Source: Bursaphelenchus xylophilus (lineage: Eukaryota; Nematoda; Chromadorea; Rhabditida; Aphelenchoididae). From it: a DNA stretch of 64,000 bases. Location: NCBI GenBank assembly GCA_904066235.2, contig CAJFCV020000004.1:3906001-3970000 (forward strand), in the 5' to 3' direction. The notes under the pieces were generated by a model, which saw only the letters and a list, made by a program, of their open reading frames with translations, did no database searches and was not told the DNA's origin. How positions within the stretch are numbered: position 1 is the stretch's first letter; every line of letters starts with the position of its first letter. Position numbers and translations under genes: made by a program. Below are positions 3,841-43,124 of this stretch, piece by piece.

Positions 3841-4340
3841 ACAGTAGCCTATTACGCTTTTTCAAAAGTGCGTAGACATTTTCCGGCCTTTTTCGCACCG
3901 CACCGTGCATGTTGCGCGACGAAATCCATTTTGCACTGTGCAAATTCTTTTCACACGCCCAAAGTTCGCAGCGACACAGCTGAGAAAAGCTTACGTCGCA
4001 GCGATATCCGGTTGCACAGTGCAAAAGGTCAAATGCACCCCGCAAAAAGGAGGTTTGTGCACGGTGCGGCCCACGACAAAATGTCTCCGCACTTTTGAAA
4101 AAGCGTAATACACTAATCACATGCAAAAAAATCATGGAGTGAATCATAATGGTTTCTATTGTCCGGCCAGGGCAAGATCGCTCCATCGGAGGCCGTGATT
4201 CTTGCCAGCATCGTCGATCCATCTCATCCTGAAGCGCCCAACCGGTCGTGTATAGGGGGTGTCGAATTCTTGCTGATCAATTCCGTTTCTAACGATTTCT
4301 TGAATTGCTCCAATTTTCCCTCGAGGATGAACAGTAGCCT
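3841..4340. repeat. 11-bp direct repeat flanking a 488-bp insertion
   Basis: ACAGTAGCCTA occurs at 3841-3851 and again at 4330-4340. The paralogous unit has it once (about 2029-2039). The DNA between is therefore an insertion relative to the paralogue; it contains the TIR element plus about 220 bp more. The direct repeat may be a target-site duplication or a recombination scar. Confidence 0.55.
3851..4109. mobile_element. MITE-like element carrying GCAC-N-GTGC motifs
   Basis: A 259-bp segment bounded by a perfect 22-bp terminal inverted repeat (3851-3872 and 4088-4109; it starts ATTACGC and ends GCGTAAT). It contains four copies of the 9-bp palindrome GCAC-N-GTGC (3900, 3933, 4014, 4059) and several GTCGC/GCGAC words, the same composition as the large field at 19.5-22 kb. 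The paralogous segment near 2040 lacks it. No transposase is encoded. Confidence 0.75.
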
Positions 4341-5310: not shown

Positions 5311-6016
5311 TCAAAAATAATGTTAATTTTTTAATAAATTTCAGAAACCTTCGGCGTTTATTGCCATTTTTTGCTTTTTATTAAAGTTTTTATGGAAAAC
5401 TAAGAGCTTTATTGGAATTCAAAATTGTAAAAAAATGTTTATTAAACTTGACTGCATACATTGATTCTTTAATATTATTATTCAAACCTTTGCGGAAAAT
5501 TTTAATTATTTCGAACGTGAAATTATTTGGTTAAAATATTTTATACTGGGTCGATATCACGTGCTAAAATTTTTTTGAACTGGCGTGATGTGATAAGGTT
5601 GAACACGGCTTCCGTCTCACGACCGTAATAGGCAGTATACAGGGTTATATACTTTCTTACAAAAATATACATATAACCATTGACCAAAGCTTAATGTTTG
5701 GTTCATTACGTGGCCCACTACAACATAGAAGTGTATTCAAGCAAACTTTCGCGCACGAAGACTCGCCTCGGTTGCCATGCTCGACGTCTAGGCTTTTGGT
5801 TTCACCGACCGTTCGCCGTAATGCTTCAAAGCATTCATGCTCCTCTTGGTTGCTGGAAAGGCACAGAGAAACTTCATCGTTCTAATCCCGTAAAGCAAGG
5901 AAGAAAATGCCGGACGGCCAAGTCACGTTCCGACATTGTCCTAAATTTGTAGACTTATAAAAGATGCATCGGAAACGCGTAATGTTTATTTTATCAAATG
6001 ACTTCCATTTATCGTT
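5311..6016. other. Intergenic, no gene seen
   Basis: AT-rich DNA between saposin copy 3 and the end of the secreted-protein gene. The first 200 bp resemble the upstream blocks of the other saposin copies. Short overlapping ORFs at 5694-5952 show no recognisable domain and no supporting splice sites. Confidence 0.5.
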
Positions 6017-8390
6017 TTACGATGATAAAGTCGATGATGGCGATGAAGTCGATGAAGCCGACGAAGTCGATGATGGCGATGAAGTCGATGGAGTGGTGAA
6101 GGACGATCCATTGGACACAGAGTACCCCATATAATCAGGCATATAATTCTGAGGAATAGACAGGCGATAGTAATCAGGAGGGCCTTGTTCCGGATGCGGG
6201 ATTGTGATATTATTATCGCAGATGGATATTAAAGTGCCCTCCTTTTGATATTCAATAAGAATATCTTTGCAGTCTCCGCTGAGCCCTATGTCATATAATG
6301 TTGACTGAGCAACCATGCGACGAGCAACTTTAAAGTTTGTGCCCCAGATATTCACCAACAGAGGGACTTGATCAAAGCGGTCCAACAGGGCAAAGAAACC
6401 GGTAGAGATGGCGAAGTTGACGGTCAGACATTGACCTGAAACCGTCAGTTATGATCAAGTTACAGCGGAAAGCAGGCTTGAGATAAATTCATACCTTCTG
6501 TGAAGTGAAGTGGGATCGGGATATAAGAGGAGTTCCGGTCGCTCTCATCGATATCAACCGACAGTAAAGATGTCGTCGCGTCATTGTAGTTGACCGCGAG
6601 AGCACCATGGAACAGCACTAAAGTAAGAGCAGACAATTTCAGAGGTAAATCAAAAGAAGCCTCAGAACAACGAAAAAGTTTCTACAACATATAAGGCGCG
6701 TGCGTTCTACATCTCAGCGGGACTCCTCGCAGAAAACCCGCATTTCTTGTCTGTAGGCCCTCTAGACAAGAAATGCGCATTTTCTGTCTAAAATAGAGAC
6801 AAAATTTGCAAAACTTCTCTGAGATAACAGACAAAGAGCCTGTCTGTTAGCCTGGACGAAAACTTCAAAATGTTGTCTGGACTCCAGACAAGAAACGAGG
6901 AATCCTGTCTGGTAGGTAGTCAGACAAACTTTTTTGTCTGACCAGAAACGGCAAATCCTGTAAAAAATCTTTATCCACAAAAAGTTTCGATTCTCCTCTC
7001 TGTAGGACTTGCGAGTTGCATTTCACAGCCCAAGTTCTACGACGGAACTTGTCCGAACAACGAAATACAAGGCCAACCACCGTCGTCGCTGACCCCGATC
7101 ACGGTGAAGAACACTCTCCGCCTTGGAACTTTTGCGTTCCTTGAGACTGTTTTCGTTTCTGGCCGAAAGGCCGAAGACCAACAAATTCGGAAAAAACATT
7201 GCCCGCACAAGTAAAGAAAACTTTCTCGCTCAGGAAAGAAATGGGTTCCTCTCATGAGCGAGAAACCCAGAGCCGAGAAACGCAGAGAAAAAAACAAAAA
7301 CGCACGCAAAAAGCGTGAGCGAGAGGGCACTATGAACGCGATTTTTTCTCTGCGTTTCTCGCTCATGAGAGGAACCCATTTCTTTTGAGCGAGATAGTTT
7401 TCTTTCGTCATGCGAGCTAAGTGACCTTCGAATTTGTTGGTGTTTGGCCTTTCGGCCAGAAACGAAAACAGTCTCAAGGAACGCAGAAGTTCCAAGGCGG
7501 AGGGTGTTCTTCACCGTGATCGGGGTCAGCGGCGACGGTGGTTGGCCTTGTATTTCGTTGTTCGGACAAGTTCCGTCGTAGAACTTGGGCTGTGAAATGC
7601 AACTCGCAAGTCCTACAGAGAGGAGAATCGAAACTTTCTGTGGATAAAGATTTTTACAGGATTTGCCGTTTCTGGTCAGACAAAAAAGTTTGTCTGACTA
7701 CCAGACAGGATTCCTCGTTTCTTGTCTGGAGTCCAGACAACATTTTGAAGTTTTCGTCCAGGCTAACAGACAGGCTCTTTGTCTGTTATCTCAGACAAGT
7801 TTTGCAAATTTTGTCTCTATTTTAGACAGAAAATGCGCATTTCTTGTCTAGAGGGCCTACAGACAAAAAATGCGGGTTTTCAGGCCCGCTGAGATGTAGA
7901 ACGCACGCGCCTTATATGTTCTTTGGCTATTCGGTGTACAGAGGTTAGCCTGAACTTACGACCGGTCTCAAAAATGGGGGTTGGAAGTTGAACGATGGTC
8001 CCATCGTTTATTTTTACTGAAACCGTTCCATTTGCAAGTGTCAGAGCGACGTCAGTGTCGTTTACTTTCTGTGTGTGCTTCATGTCTAGTTCTGTTTCAT
8101 CTGCAAGTTGACATTGAAGTTTTCTTGGGTCCCTTTGTCGACCTACTCTTATAATCGTATACCCGATAGAAATTTCGACTAACATGAACTCGCAAACGAG
8201 AAGTACGATTTTCAAGCGTATATCCAGTATCTTCGTAGATAATGACGTCGGCCGGGGAATCCGTGCTGAACCTCAGCTTCACCGAGATCTTGTCTCCATC
8301 GAGCCAACCTTGAAATCGATTCTGAATATAGGTAACATCGCCAGCAAGTGTGATGGCGACCAGAAGAAGAAGAGAAACAAAATGTAACAT
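6017..8390 (-). CDS. Secreted protein with Ser/Thr-rich tail, paralogue B
   Basis: Four exons, 8390-8147, 8100-7960, 6617-6495 and 6435-6017, all joined in phase 1, give about 308 residues. The start is the ATG at 8390, followed by a signal peptide of about 17 residues. The body alternates hydrophobic and polar residues like a beta-sandwich and carries several N-glycosylation sequons (for example NRT, NGT, NSS). The last 25 or so residues are Ser/Thr/Pro repeats encoded by a short minisatellite, as in mucin-like stems. I do not recognise the family; a galectin-like fold is possible but unproven. Intron 2 contains a 1.2-kb palindromic transposon. It is the tandem partner of the gene at 8955-12151. 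Confidence 0.65.
6691..7915. mobile_element. Long palindromic (foldback) transposon in intron 2
   Basis: About 1.2 kb made of two inverted arms that meet near 7305. The outer ends read ATAAGGCGCG and CGCGCCTTAT, flanked by AACAT and ATGTT. The paralogous intron near 11680 has the uninterrupted site, so this is an insertion, with an AT or TA duplication at most. The arms are full of short CAGAC/GTCTG palindromes. ORFs inside mirror each other and encode nothing recognisable; no transposase is present, so it is non-autonomous. Confidence 0.85.
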
Positions 8391-8637
8391 CACTCCCAAT
8401 TGAACAGCGTCAAATGTGAATGAAATGAAGCGCGTTTTTCAATTTAAAAATGATAATAATGCCTTTGGTACGTCAAATTAATGAGGCCATACGAGGATTC
8501 GATATTACAATTTTTGACGACTCCATAAAGGCAGACGTGTAATGAACTGTGCAAAAACCAAGTACAAGGATTTATAAGCCATGAAAACAACAACGATCAA
8601 AAAATAAACTCAACAAAAAACATATAAATAACGTTAC

Positions 8638-8954: not shown

Positions 8955-11900
8955 TTACGATGATATAGTCGATGAAGCCGATGAAGTCGAATATGGCGAT
9001 GAAGTCGATGATGGCGATGAAGTCGATGATGGAGTGGTGAAGCACGATCCATTGGACACGGAGTATCCGACAAACGCAGACATAAAATACTGAGGAATAG
9101 ACAGGCGATAGTAATCAGGAGGACCTTGTTCCGGATGCGGGATTGTGTCGTTCCTATCGCAAGCAGATACGACGGTACCCTCCTTTTGGTATTCAAGAAG
9201 AAAACGATTGCAGTTGTTGTCGCTTTCGTAGCTTATGTTATAGTTTGTTGACTCAGTAACCATGCGGCGAACAAGGACCGGTGAAGTAACCTGGGTATTC
9301 ACCCACAGAGGGATTTGATCAAAGCGATCCAACAAGGCAAAGAAAAAGTGAAGGCTGTTGAAGTTGACGATCAGACATTGACCTGAAACCGTCAGTTATG
9401 ATCAAGTTACAGCGGAAAGCAGGCTTGAGATAAATTCATACCTTCTGTGAAGTGAAGTGGGATCGGGATATAAGAGGAGTTCCGGTTGCTCTCATCGATA
9501 TCAACCGACAGTAAAGATGTCGTCGCGTCATTGTAGTTGACCGCGAGAGCACCATGATACAACCCTAAAGATTGATTGGTAAAAAAATATTCCACATAAT
9601 TTTCGGGAAAAGTAATGAAAGTTGTGGAAATTTCTAGAAAGTGCTATCATGTGACTACAGTGGCGCTCAAAAAAAACGGCCACCCCAAGATGATGCGCTC
9701 TAACGCAGAAGAGAGTAGTCGTAGGAAGATAAATATGGTATCATTGTAAAGCTTATGGAATACTAAGACGTGTGACTATACGCTTGTGGTACTGTAGTGC
9801 TGGCCTAGCACGTACTGGGGCAATATGTTCTTTTGGCCTGGTCAAAAAAAATGGCCACCCATAATTATTTTGCTTTAAACGCGGTGTATGTTAGAAATTG
9901 CCGCCATATGGGACTGGACTAGGATAGCTATATCAATACACACCAATTCCAGTATTTTTTACTTTGTACATATGCCCTCAGGCATCAATCAGGGTTGATG
10001 ACCTTGTTCATGGTTAAGGCCCGGCCAAAATTTTTTTTGGGTTTCTGCCGTTGTTTTGATAATCCGAAGCAATACTGTAGACGGTATTGATCGTATTCGT
10101 GTGTAAGACTGCCCACTTTTGCCAAAATTGCGCCTCTTTTGATAAGAAAACTCAAAAAATGGAATTTTTTGACCTAATTTTCTCCAAAAATCCGTTTTGG
10201 AGGCCGCTAAACCATGAATGTAGAACCTTAAACAGGTTTTATTTGTACAAGAACATCATGGACATTTGTTTTAACACGGCACCGATTAAAGCAAACGACC
10301 GCCCGAAACGACAGATACCGTTTTGTTACAGTTTTCGACTTCATGAAGTAATCATGAATTTTGTCCGGTTCCGAAACCTCGTTGAATAGAAATTAGAATA
10401 TAGTATCGCATTTGTGGCGTAGTTGAGATACCACTTAATCATTTAAAGATAAATATGAGCCCCTAAAGCGAAAATTCGGGTTGCAGACCTTGACAAAGTT
10501 CATGACTATTTCCTGAAGTCGAAAACTGTAACAAAACGGTATCTGTCGTTTCGGGCGGTCGTTTGCTTTAATCGGTGCCGTGTTAAAACAAATGTCCATG
10601 ATGTTCTTGTACAAATAAAACCTGTTTAAGGTTCTACATTCATTGTTTAGCGGCCTTCAAAACGGATTTTTGGAGAAAATTAGGTCAAAATATTTCATTT
10701 TTTGAGTTTTCTTATCAAAAGAGGCGCAATGTTGGCAAAAGTGGGCAGTCTTACACACGAATACGATCAATACCGTCTACAGTATTGCTTTGGATTATCA
10801 AAACAACGGCACAAACCCAAAAAAAAATTTAGCCGGGCCTTAACCATGAACAAGGTCATCAACCCTGATTGATGCCTGAGAGCATATGTACAAAGTAAAA
10901 AATACTGGAATTGGTGTGTATTGATATAGCTATCCTAGTCCAGTCCCATATGGCGGCAATTTCTAACATACACCGCGTTTAAAGCAAAATAATTATGGGT
11001 GGCCATTTTTTTTGACCAGGCCAAAAGAACATATTGCCCCAGTACGTGCTAGGCCAGCACTACAGTACCACAAGCGTATAGTCACACGTCTTAGTATTCC
11101 ATAAGCTTTACAATGATACCATATTTATCTTCCTACGACTACTCTCTTCTGCGTTAGAGCGCATCATCTTGGGGTGGCCGTTTTTTTTTGACCGCCACTG
11201 TATGTAAAGGTGATGTGATAACATGTAGACTGATATAAAGGTGGTAATATGAATGAAGACAAGATGGAATTTGTCCAAAAAGGGAATTTTTGTCAAAAGC
11301 AGGCCGCCCCGTTCGATTTGATGTCTAGATTTCCCGTTTTCTGCTCGGATAAAGCACGAAATTTTGCAATTTGTGATGTTTGTTGTACCATGGATAATGT
11401 AAGTCGATTTTCCTATTTTTTTGTGCAAACTCGCCAAAAAATGGACAGATATACGTTTAGGACTGGCCACTAGGGGGCTTTGGTAGTTCAGCCCCCCAGG
11501 AAAGGTAAGAAAAATTGATAAGAAAATGCTAAAGAAAAGATAAGAAAATGCTTTTATCGGATAGTGACATTTCGTTTTGAACGAATCGCCAAAAAGGGCG
11601 GGAAATTTTTTCTTCTATTTTGGATTGACGTGCAGAGGTATGTCAAGATAGACCTCAGTACAACGAAAAATTTCCATAACATGTTTTTTTGGTAATTCGG
11701 TGTACAGAGGTTAGACTGAACTTACCATCCTTAAAAATGCCGGTTGGAAGTTGAACGACGTTCTCATCGTTTATTTTCACTGAAACCGTACCATTTGCAA
11801 GTGTCAGAGCGACGTCGGTGTCGATTACCTGTGTGTGCTTCACGTTTAGTTCTGTTTCATCTGCAAGTTGACATTGAAATTTTCGTTGTGAAAATTTGTT

Positions 11901-12151
11901 GACCTACTCTGGAAATCGTAAACCCGATAGAAATTGCGACTAACATGAACTCGCAAACGAGAAGAACGATCCTCAAGGTTATACCCAGAATCTTGGAAGA
12001 TAATAACGTCAGCCGGTGAATCCGTGAAAAACCTCAGCTTCACCAAGATCTTGTCTCCATCGAAAAAGCCTTGAAATCGCTGCCGGATACGGGTAACATC
12101 GTCAGCAAGCGTGATGGCGACCAAAAGAAGAAGATAAACAAAATGTAACAT
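8955..12151 (-). CDS. Secreted protein with Ser/Thr-rich tail, paralogue C
   Basis: Four exons, 12151-11908, 11860-11726, 9564-9442 and 9382-8955, with the same phase-1 junctions as paralogue B, give about 309 residues. A signal peptide (residues 1-17) precedes a conserved body. Exon 3 is nearly identical to that of paralogue B, while exon 4 differs more, and the tail is again a Ser/Thr/Pro repeat. Intron 2 is about 2.2 kb and contains a 1.54-kb Tc1/mariner-type foldback element, different from the one in paralogue B. The family is unknown to me. The start codon lies about 240 bp downstream of the pus7 stop on the same strand, and I see no strong trans-splice acceptor directly before it. Confidence 0.65.
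9658..11200. mobile_element. Tc1/mariner-type foldback element (1.54 kb)
   Basis: The ends read CAGTGGCG and CGCCACTG and are flanked by TA dinucleotides (9656-9657 and 11201-11202), the target duplication of Tc1/mariner transposons. Left arm (9658 to about 10365) and right arm (about 10493-11200) are nearly perfect inverted copies with a spacer of roughly 130 bp. The ORF at 10087-10389 is mirrored in the other arm and is not a transposase. A non-autonomous element that would form a 700-bp hairpin if transcribed. Confidence 0.9.
11203..11640. other. Rest of intron 2 of paralogue C
   Basis: Intronic sequence to the right of the foldback element. The ORFs at 11249-11473 on the plus strand and at 11108-11470 on the minus strand overlap each other and show no recognisable domain. 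I see no separate gene. Confidence 0.4.
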
Positions 12152-12390
12152 CACTCCCAATTGAATAGCGTCAAATGTGAGTGAAATGAAGCGCGTTTTT
12201 TAATTTAAAAATGATAATAATGCCTTTGGTACGTCAAATTAATGAGGCCATAGATTCGATATTACAATTTTTGACGACTCCATAAAGACAGATGTATAAG
12301 GAACCGTTCGAAAAACAAGTGCAACGATTTATAAGCCATGAAAACAACAACGATCAAAAAATAAGTTCAACAAAAAACAGATAAATAACA

Positions 12391-17567: not shown

Positions 17568-19185
17568 ATGAGTTCCTCGTCAGTCCAGAGTGTTCATAGT
17601 CGTGGGTTTCGTCGGAAATTGCAGAAGATTTTCTCCAGAAAATCCAAAAAAGACGGCCGACTTCTGGATACCGCGTCCGAGTCCGCTTCCTCTTCAGAAT
17701 ACAGAGTTCTCCACTGTCGGGCGATGAAAGATCAGGACGAAAAAGAGATTACAGACAAGAAGAAGGAAAATGATGGCAATAGCGATGATGGTAAGTCGAA
17801 ATTTGGACAAAATTTATATTATTTTAGACAGTTTTTGTCATCAAAAATTTTTGTTTTTTCTTCGATTTTTTCGGTTGATTGCATAGCATATGATTTGTAT
17901 AGACTATTGAAAGACTTATGAAGAGCTGTTATCTTTGTTTATTCGAGACGGATCTGCCCTAAATTCCAAAAAATCGGAAGAAAAACTTTGAATATTTTGC
18001 ATTCTTTAAAGAGTACTTTGAGGCGTTCAACTCTGTAAAATAGTGTTATTTATTATGAGTTTGGAGTTAACGGTTGTTCCGACAGGTAAAATATGCACAA
18101 AAATTTGCAAAAAAAATCGATTTTTTGTACAAAAAAAGATGATTTTAGACTATTTTTGTACAGAAAATGATGATTTTCGACCACTTTGTGTACAAAAATG
18201 GTAATTTTAGGCCACTTTTTGTACAAAAAAAAAGATTTTAGGTCATTTTTGTAAATACAAAAAAGATGATTTAAACCTTTTTTTGTAAAAAAAGATGATT
18301 TTAGATACTTTTTATACAAAAATGATGGGTTTAGACCATTTTTGTACAAAAAAAGATGATTTTAGCCCATTTTTTGTACAAAAATTACGATTTTAGACCA
18401 TTTTTTGTATAAAAAATGATGATTTTAGGCCATTTTTGTATAGAAAAAATGAAATGTCCTGTTCCATGCCCTGACGCGTTTACTGAGTAATATTCTTTGC
18501 AGACGAATCCTCTTCCGACCCCTCTTCGCCTCGCTCCAGCTCCTCCAACGACGAAGGTCTGGTGCTGTCGGAGAAGCCGGCGGATCCCAACAAAAAGCGG
18601 GCCGACTACCTTTCCTGGGACGAATTCTTCATTGGGGTGGCGTTGCTGGCCGCCCAACGCTCCAAAGATCCCTCAACGCAAGTCGGCGCCGTCATTGTGG
18701 ATGACAATAATATCATCGTCGGAGTGGGCTACAACGGAATGCCCCGAGGCTGTGATGATGATGACATGCCCTGGGGCAAAAATGAGGAGGATCCGTTGAA
18801 GAACAAGTACTATTACGTGTGCCATGCGGAGATGAATGCGATTGTGAACAAGAAGAGTGCGATCCGGGACGCCAAAATCTACGTGACCCTCTTCCCTTGC
18901 AACGAATGTGCCAAACTTATCATCCAATGTGGGATCAAGAAAGTGGTCTATATGAAGGATAAGCCACAGAAGAACGAAATGAAAGCATCTAAACTACTTT
19001 TTAGCAAGTCTAAGGTCGAATATCAGTAAGTTTTTTGAATTTGAGGCCCCTTTTTATATTACACATGGCATTTGGTGTCCCAAAAAGGCCTAAAACACAA
19101 GAGTTTTCCTTCTCATTTTTTAAAATACATATTTTTCAGACATTACCGACCAACCCGATCAAATGTCGTCCTACATTTCGATTAA
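17568..19185 (+). CDS. Deoxycytidylate (dCMP) deaminase
   Basis: Three exons (17568-17790, 18503-19025, 19140-19185), about 263 residues. It converts dCMP to dUMP, feeding thymidylate synthesis. The zinc-binding deaminase signature is intact: CHAEMNAI (His about 182, catalytic Glu about 184) and PCNEC (Cys about 207 and 210), with the family motif [10 protein letters not shown] before it and a phosphate-site [11 protein letters not shown] loop. Exon 3 supplies the expected short C-terminal strand after HYRP. The N-terminal 100 or so residues are Ser- and charge-rich and not part of the fold. Exon 1 should be read from the ATG at 17568, not an upstream TTG. Intron 1 contains a minisatellite. 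Confidence 0.92.
18117..18450. repeat. Minisatellite in dCMP deaminase intron 1
   Basis: About ten degenerate tandem copies of a unit of 31-36 bp centred on TTTTTGTACAAAAA followed by GATGATTTTAGACCA. Each unit contains a palindromic TTGTACAA core. The minus-strand ORF at 18053-18349 is only a translation of this repeat. Confidence 0.85.
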
Positions 19186-19535
19186 AATCCGAAAAAAATC
19201 CAAGAAAAAAAGAAGTATTTGCTTTAAAACCCGCAGAAAGATCAAAATATCCGAAGAAATGGGTCGATTATGAGTATTTTAATAGATTTTACAGCCTTTT
19301 ACTATCGAATAAACTGTCATTAAGCCGTCTTATCACTCAAAAACAACTTTAAACTCGACTTTTTTTGTAAAATCGGTCTTTTCAAAGACAAAAAACCCCT
19401 CAAAAAGCGATGAAAAAGAGCGATGGCCACATCTGTCCCTAGGCCGATGTCCTCAGGCGCTTTTCCCATGAATCGGATGGGGAAACGCCGGAGGGGATCA
19501 GCGCTTTTCGCGGTTTTACTTCCTCCAGCCCATCT
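19186..19535. other. 3' flank of dCMP deaminase, no gene seen
   Basis: AT-rich DNA following the stop codon. I see no clear terminal repeat marking the start of the palindrome field that begins at 19536. Confidence 0.4.
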
Positions 19536-21975
19536 GCACGGTGCGGCGATTTGGAGGCCGCACTGTGCGATTGGGAGGAGTGTGGGAATTCGCACGGTGC
19601 GGAAAAGTTTGAAGTTTAGACTGCACTGTGCAAATTTTTGGATTTTGTTTGCACAGTGCGAAAATTTGGGATGTTTGAAAACGCACTGTGCAAAAAAATA
19701 ATTTTTGAACTGCACTGTGCGTAAAACCACTTGATCGTTTTGACTGCACTGTGCGTCATGTCGCGTAATGTCTTTCGTTCCTGGATCTCGCACGGTGCAG
19801 TGATTTTCCCATCCCAGTCCGTCCGCACTGTGCATTTTCTTTTTCATGTCCATCTGACAAGCGCACGGTGCAGTTGGGCAAACATGTTGAAAGCGTGTCG
19901 CCTTTCAGCTGAAGTCCTGTCGCGCAACCATCGTGGAATGCGATCCACCTCCCCACTGGCCGTTCCTTTCGTTGAGTGGCGTGAAATTGGGTGGGCGATG
20001 GAGCGTGCCGCGAGCGGAGGGCGCGCCGAGAAAGCCCGCACAGTGCGATGGGAGGAGATGCGACAGCGGCGGGCGGGTCGCTTTTCAATCAAAATGGAGT
20101 CGCTTATCAATTGTCGCGGTTCCTTCGGGGCTGAAATCAAAACCTGCGTCTTGTTTTCGGAGTGAAGACCGCACCGTGCGTCCCATTTCTCTTTCATTTC
20201 GGAGATTGCACTGTGCGATTGGGGAAGCGCCTCGCACTGTGCACTTTTTGCGACTTTTGCTCTTTGTGCTCATCGGATTTCTTTTTTGAACTGCCGCCTC
20301 TTTGCACTGTGCACTCACTTTGTTCGCCGCACGGTGCAATGAACCTGATCCGTCTCGAATGTTCGTCGCAAACAATCGCCGAAAAAACCGGTGGACTCTT
20401 TCATTTGGTCAAAAAAACAAAAAAAAGCCTGCGGACAAAACAATCGCGATCCTCTTCATCGCTTTTGTCAAAAACAACAATCAACGCGACGACAAGAGGC
20501 CGCGCTCCAGTCACGCGTCAAAGTGCACTGTGCAATGAGTCGCGGCGACATTCCGAATTCATTGCACCGTGCAGTTTGGAGTGCGAACTTTGTCGCGGCT
20601 GGACGGCGAGATTTTCATTGCACAGGGAGTGAGGAGGTCCGTGCACGGTGCGGAATCAGTTTTCCTTTTGCTTGCACAGTGCAATAAAAAATCGTAAAAC
20701 ATAAATTTTGATTGGCGCACTGTGCAAAAAAATTGGTTAAGCGCACAGTGCAGTTTTCAAGGCCAAAACTCTCATTTTTCACGTCGCAAACGCCTTTTTT
20801 GGGGCCGCTCTGAGTCACAAAGCGGTAAGCGGCCTTCTGACAACCAATTTTTGTCGCTCTTCGGGTCTCCGGCCCAGCGTTTCCCCTAATTTTCATGGTT
20901 TTCTGATCGCATTTGGCCATTCGTGTGGGCCAAATGGCCGGCAATGCGATGGGATCCGGGAAGTCTCGGCTTTAATTTTTTTGCATTCGAATGGACATTG
21001 TCGCAAAAAAATGATGTTCCGAAAACACCTGTCGCTGTCTGGAGAGCTCAATTTTTGAGTTTCTTCGTTTGCTTTTGAAAAAAAATGTTTTAATTTCGTC
21101 GCAATTTCCCTTATTTTTGTCTTTTTTTACGTTTCAAATTATTTTTTTTTATTTTGCACAGTGCGTTCTGTCCATTTTTTCAATGCACTGTGCATTCCCC
21201 ATAACTTTCCCACTGCACAGTGCATTGACCAAAAACAAAGTGTTCAATGCACCGTGCATGCCCTTATGCCGTCCGCACTGTGCCACACCCGTTTTTGTCG
21301 CGCTCCCTTTCTTGTCGCTGTTCAAGTTTTGCAAAGAAAAAAGAAAATGAGGCGAAAGTTTTGTGTGTTTTTTGCCGCCGGATCAACAGGTTGGCTGTGG
21401 GGGGAACAGCTCGCCAAAAAAGCGCTTTTCGTCCGTCGCGGCGATTAGCGACAGTTTTCGTTTTCGGCGGTGCGCGAAATCGGTGCGGGCCGCGGGTTTT
21501 CGTCGCATGAGCGCCGCACCCCGCGACCCTTCGCTTTTCTCGTTCCTCGGCCTTTTCCGTCTCGCTGACCTCTCGTCGGGGGGTGAGCGACAGGGGGTCT
21601 GAATTTCAATCCCGCACTGTTTTCCCACCCGTTGGCATCGCCGAAAACACAGTGTCGCCGCTTTTTGAGGGTTGAGCGTGCGGGGACGCACAGTGCCGTC
21701 GCGACCGAGTTTCAAGAGAGTCATGTCGCGGTTCGAGAGCTTTCCGCACGGTGCGAATGATCTTTAAACTTTTATTTGCACAGTGCATTGATCCGTTTTC
21801 ATTGGGAAGACGTTTGCACAGTGCGATTTCAAATAAAGTTCTTTTGCTTTTCGAATGCACTGTGCAAATCTCTTGGACTTTTGCACAGTGCGATAAAAAT
21901 CTTTTCTTAATGCACAGTGCAGGTTTTCTTTTTCGGATTTTTGCACAGTGCAGTGAACTTTTGACTGCACAGTGC
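19536..21975. repeat. Field of 37 GCAC-N-GTGC palindromes
   Basis: Thirty-seven exact copies of the nine-base interrupted palindrome GCAC-N-GTGC (all four centre bases occur) lie in 2.44 kb, in five runs: 19536-19871, 20038-20337, 20525-20751, 21156-21283 and 21688-21975. Within runs the spacing from start to start is mostly 24-44 bp. The DNA between copies is not itself repeated, so this is not an ordinary satellite. The word GTCGC/GCGAC is also common. By chance less than one copy is expected. Local GC content is above the flanks. ORFs here are shadows whose translations echo the motif (HCA, CTVQ, AQC). The four motifs in the element at 3851-4109 link the field to a mobile-element type. Confidence 0.95.
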
Positions 21976-23400
21976 AATAATTTTTTCTTTTTCGTCTCTA
22001 AAATCGCCAAAATCTCTAAGAATTTTGCAAAAAGATGAAATCGCCTGAGGGGAAGAGCTTAATTAACCCGTTCGAAATTGATTATCGCTACCTGGACCAC
22101 TTGTTTTGTCACTTTTTCCCGCTTTTCCCCCGATTTCGGGGCCAGACAGCGGTTTACGCGGATAAAATGAATTCGGAAATGATTTTGGATTTATTTTAAT
22201 ATTAATGGGCCCATAAAAAAGGTTCAGCCCAACTTTTTCGCCCCTTTCTTTACCTCCGACATCGAGAATAATAGCAAAAATGTGCTGAAAACACAAAAGT
22301 TTGTGGTTTTTCGCCAAAAACGAGTGACTGTTTTGATGTTTTAGGCGGTAATCTCTGTGTTTCGGGGAAAGTCCAATGTTGTTGTGGGAAATTTTGGGAT
22401 TTTTATGCAAAAATTTGGGAATTGCGATGATTTTTGGGGATAATCCTTTCGAAGAATGGCTATGAGGGACACGGAAGTGTGGGATTTTGTGTGGGAGTTT
22501 CAAGTGGTACTGTAGGTTCTGTACCGATTTTTTGGCCGAAAATTTTGGAAATTTTTAAAAAATTTTGAAGAATGATGATTTTTTGGATTTTTTTTGCGAT
22601 TTTATGACTAAACTTTGGTTTATTATAATAACAGAATCTCATATTTTACAATTTCAACATGATTTCTTTTCAAAATTTTGAAAAAAAATGCAAAAAATAA
22701 AAAAAATTTTTTGATTTTTCCAAAAATTTCCGTCAAAAAATCGCTAAAAATTCTTAAAATTCAAACAAAAATTCCGTGAATTCCATTAAACCACAGGAAT
22801 TTCGCCTTTGGTCGTTCAATTTCCCCTCTTTTCGCCTCTTTTCATTAACTCAAACACAACATTTTACAAAAACTTACTTTCCCTGCGTGTGAAGCGGCTT
22901 TTGGTTACTCGAATTACTCACTCCTCTCATCCCTCTATTCTTTGATCCCCAATTCTTCCATTTGTCTTTAATTCTGTTCCACGTCGAGATCGAGAAAGGC
23001 CGAGAGATCTGGTTTTTGGCCTAAAATAAGGTCCAGATTGTTTTTGAACGGGGTTTATGGGTGGGTGGATGGGATAAGAGATGTTCGAGGGCTAGTTTAT
23101 GGGCTGGAGATGGGTTTGCAAGTTGGGTGAGGGCTTGAAAGTAAAGAAAAGGCGCACGGCAACCCGAAGTGTTTCCTGGCTCCTTTCGATACTTCGCCCA
23201 TTTTGTATCGGTTAAAATCAAACGAAATGTCACAGAAGAATTTTTCGTGGGGTTTTCCGACCGAAAAATATTTTTCTCGGAATTATTTTATTTCTTTTTT
23301 CAATTTTGACACTTCGTTTGGACGAAACTCAAAAGTGGGCGGGAAACATTTTTCTTCTATTTCGGGTTGCCGTGAGGCGTTTTTTCCCGGAAAATAGCGG
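21976..23400. other. AT-rich intergenic DNA, no gene seen
   Basis: Low-complexity A/T-rich sequence with many homopolymer runs. Short ORFs at 22063-22642 and 23021-23397 show no domain. I found nothing further to annotate. Confidence 0.4.
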
Positions 23401-23760: not shown

Positions 23761-24469
23761 TTTTTCGAATTTAGATATAAAAAACTCTCTGAAAAATAAC
23801 TTTGAATATCCTCTAAGCCTTCTCAGACCTTTGTTGTGATATCTCAAGACAAATTCAGTAATGAAATTGACGTATTTACCTTGTTTTTAGCCTTTTTTTC
23901 CCTCAATTTCCCTGATTTTCGCTTTCATTTTCAAAAATGACCAATTTCCAAAGCCCCTAACGCCTGTCTAGGTCTCTGCGAGTTCAATTCAGATATTTTT
24001 CTCTTGTCTATCAACAATTTCCCAGTCTATTTGTTATTTAAAAGACGATTTCTGAGACAGTGAAGCAAGCCGTGACATAGGATTTTTTCGAAGTTGAGTT
24101 TTTTGCATAAATATGATCCACAGCACCAGTAGGGAAAAAGCGAACCACAGTTTTCCTCAATTCTTCCATTAACTGTACTTTTTATACAATTTTCTGTTTA
24201 TACAGTAATTCGTCATAACTTTCTACAATGGTGTCCGTTTGTCATAAAAATAAGGCTACTATGGTTTTTGGGCATGACCAGTTCAATAAAACCAAAAAAA
24301 AATTCATCCGGTTACGGTAACATATAAAAATACTGTATCGGTCGGTAAAAATCCACCATAAAAAGTTTGTTTCAAAAAAGCCACAGCCAATTTTTTCATA
24401 TTCGTAATCAGCGTAAAATTCTGCTCTAGGACCAATTTTAAAAAGTTCAAAAATAGGACCCCCATTTTC

Positions 24470-24540
24470 CGTGGTGCAGTGGTTTTTGACCAGGACTCGT
24501 AATCTGACCACCCAGGTTCGAATCCGGGTGGGTGCGAATG
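24470..24540 (+). other. tRNA-like Pol III box pair (left arm)
   Basis: TGGTGCAGTGG fits an A box and GGTTCGAATCC fits a B box, with an anticodon-loop-like CTCGTAA between them, similar to tRNA-Thr(CGT). The acceptor and anticodon stems do not pair well, so this is not a functional tRNA gene but a tRNA-derived promoter as in SINEs. A mirror copy lies at about 25363-25436 on the minus strand. Confidence 0.5.
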
Positions 24541-25362
24541 TAGAAAAAAGACCTAAAATCACTTTTAATGAAAACCTGAGAGTTATTTGAAGCACGCTGA
24601 GCAATTTTAGGCATTAAAACTCTCTGAATTTGGGATTAAAACGATTTTTATGTAATTTTAGAGGATTAATGCATCAAAAATAAAACTGCTTCAAACTGGT
24701 TGAAATTGATAACACTTATTCTATGGCTAATTGTAAGAAACTTTTCTGTTAACTTTTTTTGGTAGAGTGCTGTATCATGGATTACTGTAACATAAAACTT
24801 ATTCTACTTAGCAGATGTTTTCTTCAAAATTCTTGGGTAAATGTTTTTCTTTTTTTGATTAGATCTATTAAAATGCAAGAAATCTCAACGCTCCATATTT
24901 CAAAAAAAGAATTTCCCATGATATATTGTGCATCTTGACATCATTATCGATTGGAAACCTGCGCGTTATAACGGACGTGTTTCAAGTCCTACGGACATAG
25001 AAAACACATTTGTGTGATAACCAACGTGTTCTCAAGCATTCCTATCATAATTGTGATACACTGAAGTCTCTACGCCCTGTGGCATACCAAAAACGAAAAC
25101 AGGTTTAATGTTACAGTAATCTATGATACAGCATTCTACCAAAAAAAGTTAACGGGAAAGTTTCTTACAATTAGCCATAGAATAAGTGTTATCAATTTCA
25201 ATCAGTTTGAAGCAGTTTTATTTTTGATGCATTAATCCTCTAAAATTACATAAAAATCGTTTTAATCCCAAATTCAGAGAGTTTTAATGCCTAAAATTGC
25301 TCAGCGTGCTTCAAATAACTCTCAGGTTTTCATTAAAAGTGATTTTAGGTCTTTTTTCTACA

Positions 25363-25436
25363 TTCGCACCCACCCGGATTCGAACCTGGGTGGTCAGATT
25401 ACCAGTTTTGGTCAAAAACCACTACACCACGGAAAA
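25363..25436 (-). other. tRNA-like Pol III box pair (right arm)
   Basis: Mirror copy of the sequence at 24470-24540 in the opposite arm of the foldback element. The A and B boxes are preserved with one substitution in the A box, while the anticodon loop differs. Not a foldable tRNA. Confidence 0.5.
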
Positions 25437-25874
25437 TGGGGGTCCTATTTTTGAACTTTTTAAAATTTGTCCTAGAGCAGAATTTTACGCTGATTACGAA
25501 TATGAAAAAATTGGCTGTGGCTTTTTTGAAACAAACTTTTTATGGTCGATTTTTACCGACCGATGCAGTATCTTTATATGTTACCGAAACCGGATGAAAT
25601 TTTTTTTGGTTTTATTGAACTCGTCACGCCCAAAAACCATGGTAGCCTTATTTTTATGACAAACGGACACCATTGCAGAAAGTTATGACGAATTACTGTA
25701 TAAACAGAAAATTGTATAAAAAGTACAGTTAATGGAAGAATTAAGGAAAACTGTGGTTCGCTTTTTCTCTACAGGTGCCATGGGTCATAATAATGTAAAA
25801 AACTCAACATCGAAAAAATCCTATGTCCTGGCCTAACTGCGGCTTGCTTCAGTGACTCAGAAATCGTCTTTTAA

Positions 25875-41638: not shown

Positions 41639-41822
41639 ATCGCTTCTCGGCCTTTTGGCTAAGATCAAAGTGTAGTATCTGTTCTTATCGGTTTAATCTC
41701 CGGTACGACTTCTATTGAAGTCATTCGAGATTAACAGATTTTTGGGACCAGCGGAGTTGTGAAGGCTTGCCTTCCGCTCGGCACGGGTCGGCCCGGTCTT
41801 GCACTACTTCCGGGAACGGCCC
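41639..41822 (+). ncRNA. U2 spliceosomal snRNA (plus copy)
   Basis: It begins ATCGCTTCTCGGCCTTTTGG, the conserved U2 5' end, continues through GCTAAGATCAAAGTGTAGTATCTGTTC with the branch-point recognition sequence GTAGTA, and has an Sm site (GATTTTTGGG) followed by two 3' stem-loops ending CGGCCC. The length of about 184 nt fits U2. The RNA is identical or nearly so to the inverted copy at 42941-43124. Confidence 0.95.
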
Positions 41823-42940
41823 AGATATTATTATAATAAACAACAAAGTAACCGTATCTTGGAATTTTATCTACTGTTACTTCGACAAGTAGAAATTTTA
41901 TGACAAATTCGCAGTATGAACCTGGTTTTTTGGACCCTCCACTACCGGAACAAGTTGTTTTTTTCGTCCAAATCCTATGTCATTGAACTCAACCGTTCGT
42001 GCATGTTCCCAAAACTCTTACAATTCGAAACTCCACCGGAAGCACGTGAATTCTCCGTTCGCCTGCAATGCCCGTACAAACTGGAGTTCGGGAGGTCATA
42101 ACGAGTGCAGGGACTAAATGGAAATGTGTGAAGACGCGTCGAAAATCGCCTGAGGGCCTAATTTTGAGTGTTTATTTTGTGGGCACGAAACTCGGGGCAC
42201 AAAGTGTAATTGAATAGAGCAAATTTTATTTATTTTCTCGCGACAAAAAATATTTTATGGGCTTTATGATCTAAATTTTATTAGGTGTGCTTTCCATGCG
42301 GGCCGGATTCCGTTTTCGTGGACGGCATTCCGTTTTCTGGGCACTTCTTCTTTCATTTTTATATATGTATATGTTGGTATTATGCTGTAGAAAACATTTT
42401 AAGAGTAATTACAAGTCATGTAAACGTAACTTTAGGACTCTAGGAAGATAGTAAAATCGCCGGGGAAACATTAAAAAACTGTATTTTTGCGAACTTCTCA
42501 CCCCCGTTTCCTATTTATAACCCCATTACGAACAAGTGTATCGCTCTCAATTCCCCATCCGTTACTCTCGCACATGATTGCGAACTGAATATTCGAGAAG
42601 TGCGACAAAATGATAAACGAGGTTTGGGTTCGGCATGCCCTCGGGGAATGGAGTCGGCGATCCTCTGACTGCCTCCGGAATCTACAAAGCGTCATATTTG
42701 TTTATGGCCAATTGTTTTGCTAAAAGTTTTGCCGTTTATCTTGAGACTTTTCCGAATTTTCAAATTGAGTTTGAATGGCGTATCGGCGAAACTAGCGATT
42801 ATTTGAGAATCTAGGGCAAATTAGAGATTTTGCTTGATTTTCGGACGATTAGCAGGTGCAATGTCAAACTTCTGGCTCATAAAATTAATCAAATTTATCT
42901 TCGATTTGATTGAATTTAGTTTGATAATATAATAATATCT
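41823..42940. other. Spacer between convergent U2 genes
   Basis: About 1.1 kb between the 3' ends of the two U2 genes. Both RNAs are directly followed by ATATTATTATA-like sequence, so the inverted duplication includes a few bases past the 3' end. I see no gene in the spacer. Confidence 0.5.
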
Positions 42941-43124
42941 GGGCCGTTCCCGGAAGCAGTGCAAGACCGGGCCGACCCGTGCCGAGCGGAAGGCAAGCCT
43001 TCACAACTCCGCTGGTCCCAAAAATCTGTTAATCTCGAATGACTTCAATAGAAGTCGTACCGGAGATTAAACCGATAAGAACAGATACTACACTTTGATC
43101 TTAGCCAAAAGGCCGAGAAGCGAT
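42941..43124 (-). ncRNA. U2 spliceosomal snRNA (minus copy)
   Basis: Inverted copy of the U2 gene at 41639-41822 with the same 5' end, branch-site recognition sequence, Sm site and 3' stem-loops. One difference is visible: GAAGCAGTGCAAG on the plus map where the other copy gives GAAGTAGTGCAAG. The two genes point toward each other. Confidence 0.95.

Follow-up and report, generated by a model that had tools for sequence, protein, structure and literature searches.

Clusters of a constrained palindrome in Bursaphelenchus xylophilus as candidate sites for a dimeric DNA-binding protein

Why should 37 exact copies of one interrupted palindrome, GCACNGTGC, be crowded into 2.4 kb of intergenic DNA of the nematode Bursaphelenchus xylophilus? 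The field in question occupies positions 19536-21975 of a 64-kb window (the whole stretch of DNA that was analysed, C4:3906001-3970000), at about 0.31 of the length of scaffold C4. With a probability of about 0.6, we read this field as one of many clusters of YYGCACNGTGCRR sites for a candidate B. xylophilus protein that would bind DNA symmetrically, probably as a dimer, and in a sequence-specific way. An earlier sequence-only reading of the window had proposed a site array for a dimeric DNA-binding protein, and this proposal draws support from the fixed bases, the free centre, the symmetric flanks and the minimum distance described below, the protein itself being a candidate.

The field and the shape of its site

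The window contains 41 exact copies of GCACNGTGC, four of them in 3900-4067 and the other 37 in the field, so that a recount returned the number first reported for 19536-21975. The statement that this count is far above chance also holds, as 100 dinucleotide shuffles of the whole window gave a mean of 0.27 copies (largest 3) and first-order simulations of the field alone gave 0.1. According to the exact-site positions, the copies form a run of 11 (19536-19871), a lone site (20038-20046) and further runs of five (20171-20337), six (20525-20751), five (21156-21283) and nine (21688-21975), no strand being assigned to any of these features. The field begins about 500 bp beyond the end of a dCMP-deaminase reading frame (18487-19029), and its G+C content is 0.49 vs 0.35 in the following two kilobases.

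As had been said of them, the spacers of the field are not repeated: over lags of 20-60 bp, self-identity peaks at 0.29 against a mean of 0.26, and no self-alignment of ≥100 bp is found within the field. The spacers are slightly more alike than shuffled ones (0.294 vs 0.263), a value as high being reached in none of 60 shuffles. Also, no whole copy of the field elsewhere is present among the 116 matches listed, and its spacers have no near-identical match besides the field itself, in both cases with 40 of 110 candidates scored. A CRISPR-like or small-RNA array, in which palindromes would alternate with spacers of 15-27 bp, was rejected on this lack of spacer matches, no direct test of it having been made. 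The lack of a period, of long self-alignments and of a whole copy argues against the 2.4 kb being one ordinary repeat with conserved spacers. The long inverted repeats detected in the field are built around the sites themselves.

The shape of the site was read from 13 pooled arrays (18,447 bp), which exclude the overlapping loci L001-L005, L029, L037 and L038 and the site-poor loci L007 and L008; the array of the unplaced contig C8 contained one copy of the miniature element described below in the mismatch, centre-length, second-word, flank and spacing, and self-alignment counts. The consensus of the site is YYGCACNGTGCRR. Enrichment is confined to half-sites with one base between them, at 379 sites vs 0-3 for half-sites separated by zero or by two to 12 bases, and the other centre lengths were rejected together with the opposite arrangement, GTGC-N-GCAC. 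A pyrimidine before the core and a purine after it are observed in 372 of the 379 sites, and at the second flanking position outward 88% obey the same rule. The centre base, claimed from the outset to be free, is T in 14, A in 13, G in seven and C in three of the field sites, and in the pooled arrays its symmetrised composition is 39% A, 39% T, 11% C and 11% G. Moreover, the two flanks are interdependent, C before and G after occurring together in 16 cases and AG read outward on both flanks in 6 vs 18.4 expected, an effect partly due to the shared orientation of tandem-array units.

Regarding the spacing, 29 of the 36 distances in the field are below 60 bp and the shortest is 24 bp, a minimum not reached once when 37 sites were placed at random 100,000 times. 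The sequence-only reading had described a spacing of about 30 bp, or three helical turns; the figure is correct as an average only, because the 29 distances have no periodicity of 10-11 bp (R 0.02-0.04), and a helical phasing of the sites was rejected on the same values. Among the 366 neighbour distances of the pooled arrays, none is shorter than 20 bp, seven are at 20-23 bp, 261 at 24-36 bp and 45 at 37-60 bp, the remaining 53 being longer, and the peak lies at 24-31 bp in GC-rich arrays and at 32-33 bp in AT-rich arrays. We read the lower limit as what would be the footprint of one bound unit. One overlapping pair of sites is found outside the pooled arrays (C1:1066888). The seven AT-rich arrays consist of the head-to-tail units of a minisatellite, with a best lag of 30-33 bp and an identity of 0.37-0.61, and in them tandem duplication may yield the same minimum, but not in the field, because it has no period.

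A second word, GTCGC/GCGAC, is present in 29 copies among the field sites (19760-21729, by word count, no strand assigned). Its density per kilobase across the window goes from 0 to 13, the values of 12 and 13 belonging to the kilobases within 20001-22000. In the pooled arrays the longer form TGTCGC/GCGACA shows an enrichment of about 15-fold; it marks six GC-rich arrays, window 19500-22000 included, and the seven AT-rich arrays hold 0 to 3 copies of GTCGC/GCGAC each. It is possible that TGTCGC is a second binding site in the GC-rich fields, for which it is a candidate.

Constraint on the fixed bases

Across the arrays and element copies that were compared, strong constraint on the eight fixed bases contrasts with drift at the centre and in the spacers. 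The first evidence comes from imperfect sites, the pooled arrays having 379 exact vs 30 one-mismatch sites (9.5 expected by chance) and the field 37 vs none (1.6 expected).

The second comes from the miniature inverted-repeat element at 3850-4110 of the window (no strand assigned), identified from site positions and copy alignment, which has TA at 3850-3851 and 4109-4110, inverted ends and sites at 3900, 3933, 4014 and 4059. A second dispersed repeat adjoins it at 4109-4323, with many matches of 88-96% identity. For the comparison, 22 near full-length copies of the element were chosen by similarity and not by intact motifs (40 of 577 candidates scored, three partial rows excluded). Compared in pairs, these copies differ in 0.28% of the fixed bases, 16.6% of the centre bases, 1.4% of the end repeats and 9.9% of the rest, and none of 5,000 random window sets gave a value as low as that of the fixed bases. 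Only 1 of 32 fixed columns is variable vs 72 of 173 in the rest. When L045, which is near-identical to L043, is removed for the shared-variant and singleton counts, the remaining 21 copies have a variant common to at least two copies in 0 of 32 fixed columns, 39 of 173 of the rest and two of the four centres, and singletons at 1 of 671 fixed positions vs 45 of 3,518 others (Fisher p 0.007).

The third test used self-alignments of ≥100 bp in ten arrays, where the fixed bases differ by 8%, the centre by 50% and the spacers by 30%, with the same copies reused repeatedly and a position taken as fixed if the motif is intact in either copy. From array to array, the difference at the fixed bases goes from 1.6% to 17%.

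Number and chromosomal placement

The sequence-only reading had proposed a genome-wide count and a mapping of clusters, and both agree with an uneven distribution of the motif. The B. xylophilus genome contains 41,616 exact copies of GCACNGTGC vs 178 of a mirrored control, and pairs of sites 15-40 bp apart give 24,539 matches vs none for the control. A similarity search with the field as query found 115 places besides the field (40 of 110 candidates scored), which merge into 33 array loci. All 33 fall outside the middle thirds of the scaffolds, with 0.199 of the scaffold length as the greatest distance from an end. C1, C3, C5 and C6 have such loci on both sides, C2 has them on the right and C4 on the left; other site listings also place arrays on both sides of C2 among the matches listed. 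All six scaffolds carry arrays of the same motif. Here, arm means the outer thirds of a scaffold, defined by position and not by recombination.

In further listings, which reach C3 or early C4, a middle third contains none of the 50 sites listed out of 82 and one of the 100 rows listed out of 219; among the 100 rows listed out of 220 there are four, all with recurrent ACAAAA-type spacers. No sites are present in 10-kb samples taken at 6.0 Mb of each of the six scaffolds or in the first 10 kb of each, so the motif is not equally dense everywhere. At 3.0 Mb, the corresponding samples have 8, 3, 1, 0, 3 and 0 sites. The middles are not site-free, as indicated by three sites at C1:6.012-6.019 Mb.

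Some neighbouring observations concern individual loci. At C1:100392-107966 groups of usually three sites come back about every 2.36 kb, a pattern that points to a longer tandem repeat with the motif in its unit. The unplaced contig C8 (L016, 1-10000) has 60 sites in 10 kb, and the miniature element occurs in it once, at 5745-6017. The telomere word TTAGGC forms long runs at the start of C1 and C4 and a short run at the start of the small contig C7. Outside the nematode, three consecutive sites occur in at least 119 stretches of a prokaryote collection and 28 of a virus collection, and the 147 loci listed have a median G+C content of 0.69 and a maximum of 20 sites per locus, 72 of them having three or four.

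Several points weigh against a motif kept by selection for a binding protein. On contig C8 the fixed bases differ by 17% and the spacers by 21%, which is little difference. In a dispersed family that carries two sites at a distance of 20 bp (27 places, ≤3 mismatches), changes affect 11 of 432 fixed positions as against 32 of 540 in the spacer, a constraint of only 2.4-fold, and 5 of 54 centre positions. Genome-wide, one-mismatch sites number 18,654 vs 8,060 for the control, an excess of 10,594 per 41,438 exact sites; this ratio of 0.26 is higher than the value of about 0.05 in the pooled arrays, and therefore many copies elsewhere do decay. The array loci were chosen through similarity to the field or through exact motifs. 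In addition, ordinary repeats likewise concentrate on nematode arms, according to the available text of PMC8022731, and thus arm position by itself proves nothing. Taking the three tests of constraint with the two observations that weaken them, dense arrays and the element family are under strong constraint, and elsewhere the constraint is partial.

Competing explanations and proposed role

The symmetric halves, the free centre, the symmetric preference of the flanks and the minimum distance fit a dimeric binder, and from the symmetry of the site the protein would probably be a dimer. We consider it highly probable that a dedicated binding protein exists, for which about 41,600 copies, mostly in tight clusters near chromosome ends, appear to form a very large set of landing sites. 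In the mechanism that we propose, elements and local tandem duplications would supply the sites, and the bound protein would give them a value for the host or for the element, with the eight bases being kept by selection. Each site would be occupied by one dimer, neighbouring dimers following one another every 24-36 bp, and the arrays would serve the chromosome arms as a chromatin or architectural platform, for silencing, anchoring or meiotic structure. Because the arrays are clustered on the arms of all six scaffolds, a role in arm chromatin is the leading guess over transposition alone, although the chance that this, rather than the control of single genes or transposition, is the main role of the protein would be somewhat below even.

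Among the other explanations, an unlikely one is that a transposase or helper binds the motif and moves several non-autonomous families, the fields being their remains together with local duplications in repeat-rich arms. The element at 3850-4110 has the features of a Tc1/mariner-like miniature inverted-repeat transposable element (inverted ends, TA target duplication and many copies), its four sites are better conserved than its ends, and most of the 22 copies are flanked by TA at both ends, L047 and L042 deviating on one side. Also, a second dispersed family carries a pair of sites, and stretches at C1:11952550-11954064 (1,515 bp) and C5:12098927-12099976 (1,050 bp) lie between the same ends, being possible longer relatives, perhaps with a transposase. 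However, element ends number 182 (≤2 mismatches), or about 90 copies as half of the ends, and with four sites each these would supply only about 360 of the 41,616 sites. The field itself lacks both a whole copy among the matches listed and one-mismatch sites, and its long inverted repeats are centred on the sites. For this reason, the suggestion that the field is the body of an unusual transposon family does not stand for the field, whereas a TA-flanked miniature element with four sites is indeed present at 3850-4110.

It is still less probable that the fields act as enhancers or promoters (in the germline, for instance), read by a transcription factor and supplied with sites by elements as in the HIM-17 network of Caenorhabditis. 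In that network, the available text of PMC9757741 describes 782 germline-specific promoters, 284 of them with a motif pair, and the CERP2 and CELE2 elements; in B. xylophilus, too, elements such as that at 3850-4110 carry the conserved motif. Of the systems described so far, the elements bound by HIM-17 come closest to a motif that miniature inverted-repeat elements have spread and selection has then retained (PMC9757741, available text), but theirs is a pair of different motifs at promoters, whereas here one palindrome forms runs of several sites in tens of thousands of copies. The half-site also resembles the DAF-12 hexamer AGTGCA, which is a lead only, and in the accessible part of PMC3140985 the high-affinity response element of DAF-12 is a direct repeat with a 5-bp gap, unlike the palindrome with a one-base centre. 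Against a role in gene control, 37 sites over 2.4 kb that follow a reading frame, while long parts of the rest of the window have no clusters, would be an unusual promoter layout. As for possible readers of the motif, a search for THAP domains gave no matches, the control genomes equally giving none, and a search for zf-BED gave five matches above the cut-off with no link to the arrays shown.

The comparison with the meiotic pairing centres of C. elegans made by the sequence-only reading, in which one zinc-finger-like reader would act on the arrays, is very unlikely to apply. The motif clusters of HIM-8, ZIM-1, ZIM-2 and ZIM-3 are similar in consisting of a short motif in many copies at chromosome ends with a sequence-specific reader (here a candidate), and the HIM-8 motif shares CAGTGC, a lead that counts for this explanation. 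Nonetheless, two features of pairing centres fail here, as arrays lie on both sides of C1, C2, C3, C5 and C6 and the same motif occurs throughout the six scaffolds, where chromosome-specific readers would use different ones; pairing centres are disfavoured because one palindrome occupies both arms of most chromosomes. Also, homologues of HIM-8/ZIM are reported in many Clade V genomes but not in Pristionchus (available text of PMC8455136), and Bursaphelenchus belongs to Clade IV (PMC9071541). Least likely of all would be an ordinary minisatellite homogenised by unequal exchange or gene conversion, since the 30-33 bp units of the AT-rich arrays (lag identity 0.37 to 0.61) agree with it but the field has no head-to-tail units or tandem period (0.29 vs 0.26), and in tandem arrays the centre differs by 50% and the neighbouring motif bases by 8%, a pattern in which exchange would not single out the centre.

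A further parallel is the CENP-B box, a short protein-binding box conserved inside drifting satellite DNA, which resembles the present sites if the candidate protein is granted; here, however, sites are also found in non-tandem DNA, and six 10-kb samples at 6.0 Mb have none. By title or abstract, none of the papers listed in literature searches reports this motif in a nematode. The genome paper of B. xylophilus mentions large repeat regions, and in its available text the terms 'motif' and 'palindrom' do not occur (PMC7561696).

Other features of the window lie apart from the field. Two near-identical reading frames of 123 codons, at 24242-24613 (-) and 25288-25659 (+), are inverted and about 0.7 kb apart, like an inverted repeat or foldback element. 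The field has no RNA genes, the only Rfam matches in the window being two U2 spliceosomal RNA genes on opposite strands, at 41639-41829 (+) and 42934-43124 (-), with 158-160 bits each, and ARAGORN found no tRNA in the window. Finally, two pairs of similar reading frames, all on the (-) strand, at 6017-6448 and 8955-9395 and at 8097-8438 and 11846-12199, are probably local gene duplicates; the frame at 8955-9395 has no Pfam match.

Chromosome arms of nematodes differ from the middle in repeats and recombination, and to our knowledge no sequence is recognised as defining a nematode chromosome arm. In its widest form, which we hold to be tentative and on balance doubtful, the preferred reading of the arrays as sites of a dimeric binder would have a single protein use about 41,600 palindromic sites, at the spacing of its own footprint, as an arm-marking code on all six chromosomes, spread as well as renewed by mobile elements and possibly accompanied by a second factor at TGTCGC. 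If true, this would be a sequence-defined layer of nematode chromosome-arm architecture. Tens of thousands of sites with eight bases fixed amid the turnover of the spacers would offer a handle on the protein, and the arm mark would become testable. Moreover, the free centre base would be an internal control at every copy, which would make these arrays an exceptionally clear example, in nature, of selection acting on binding sites.
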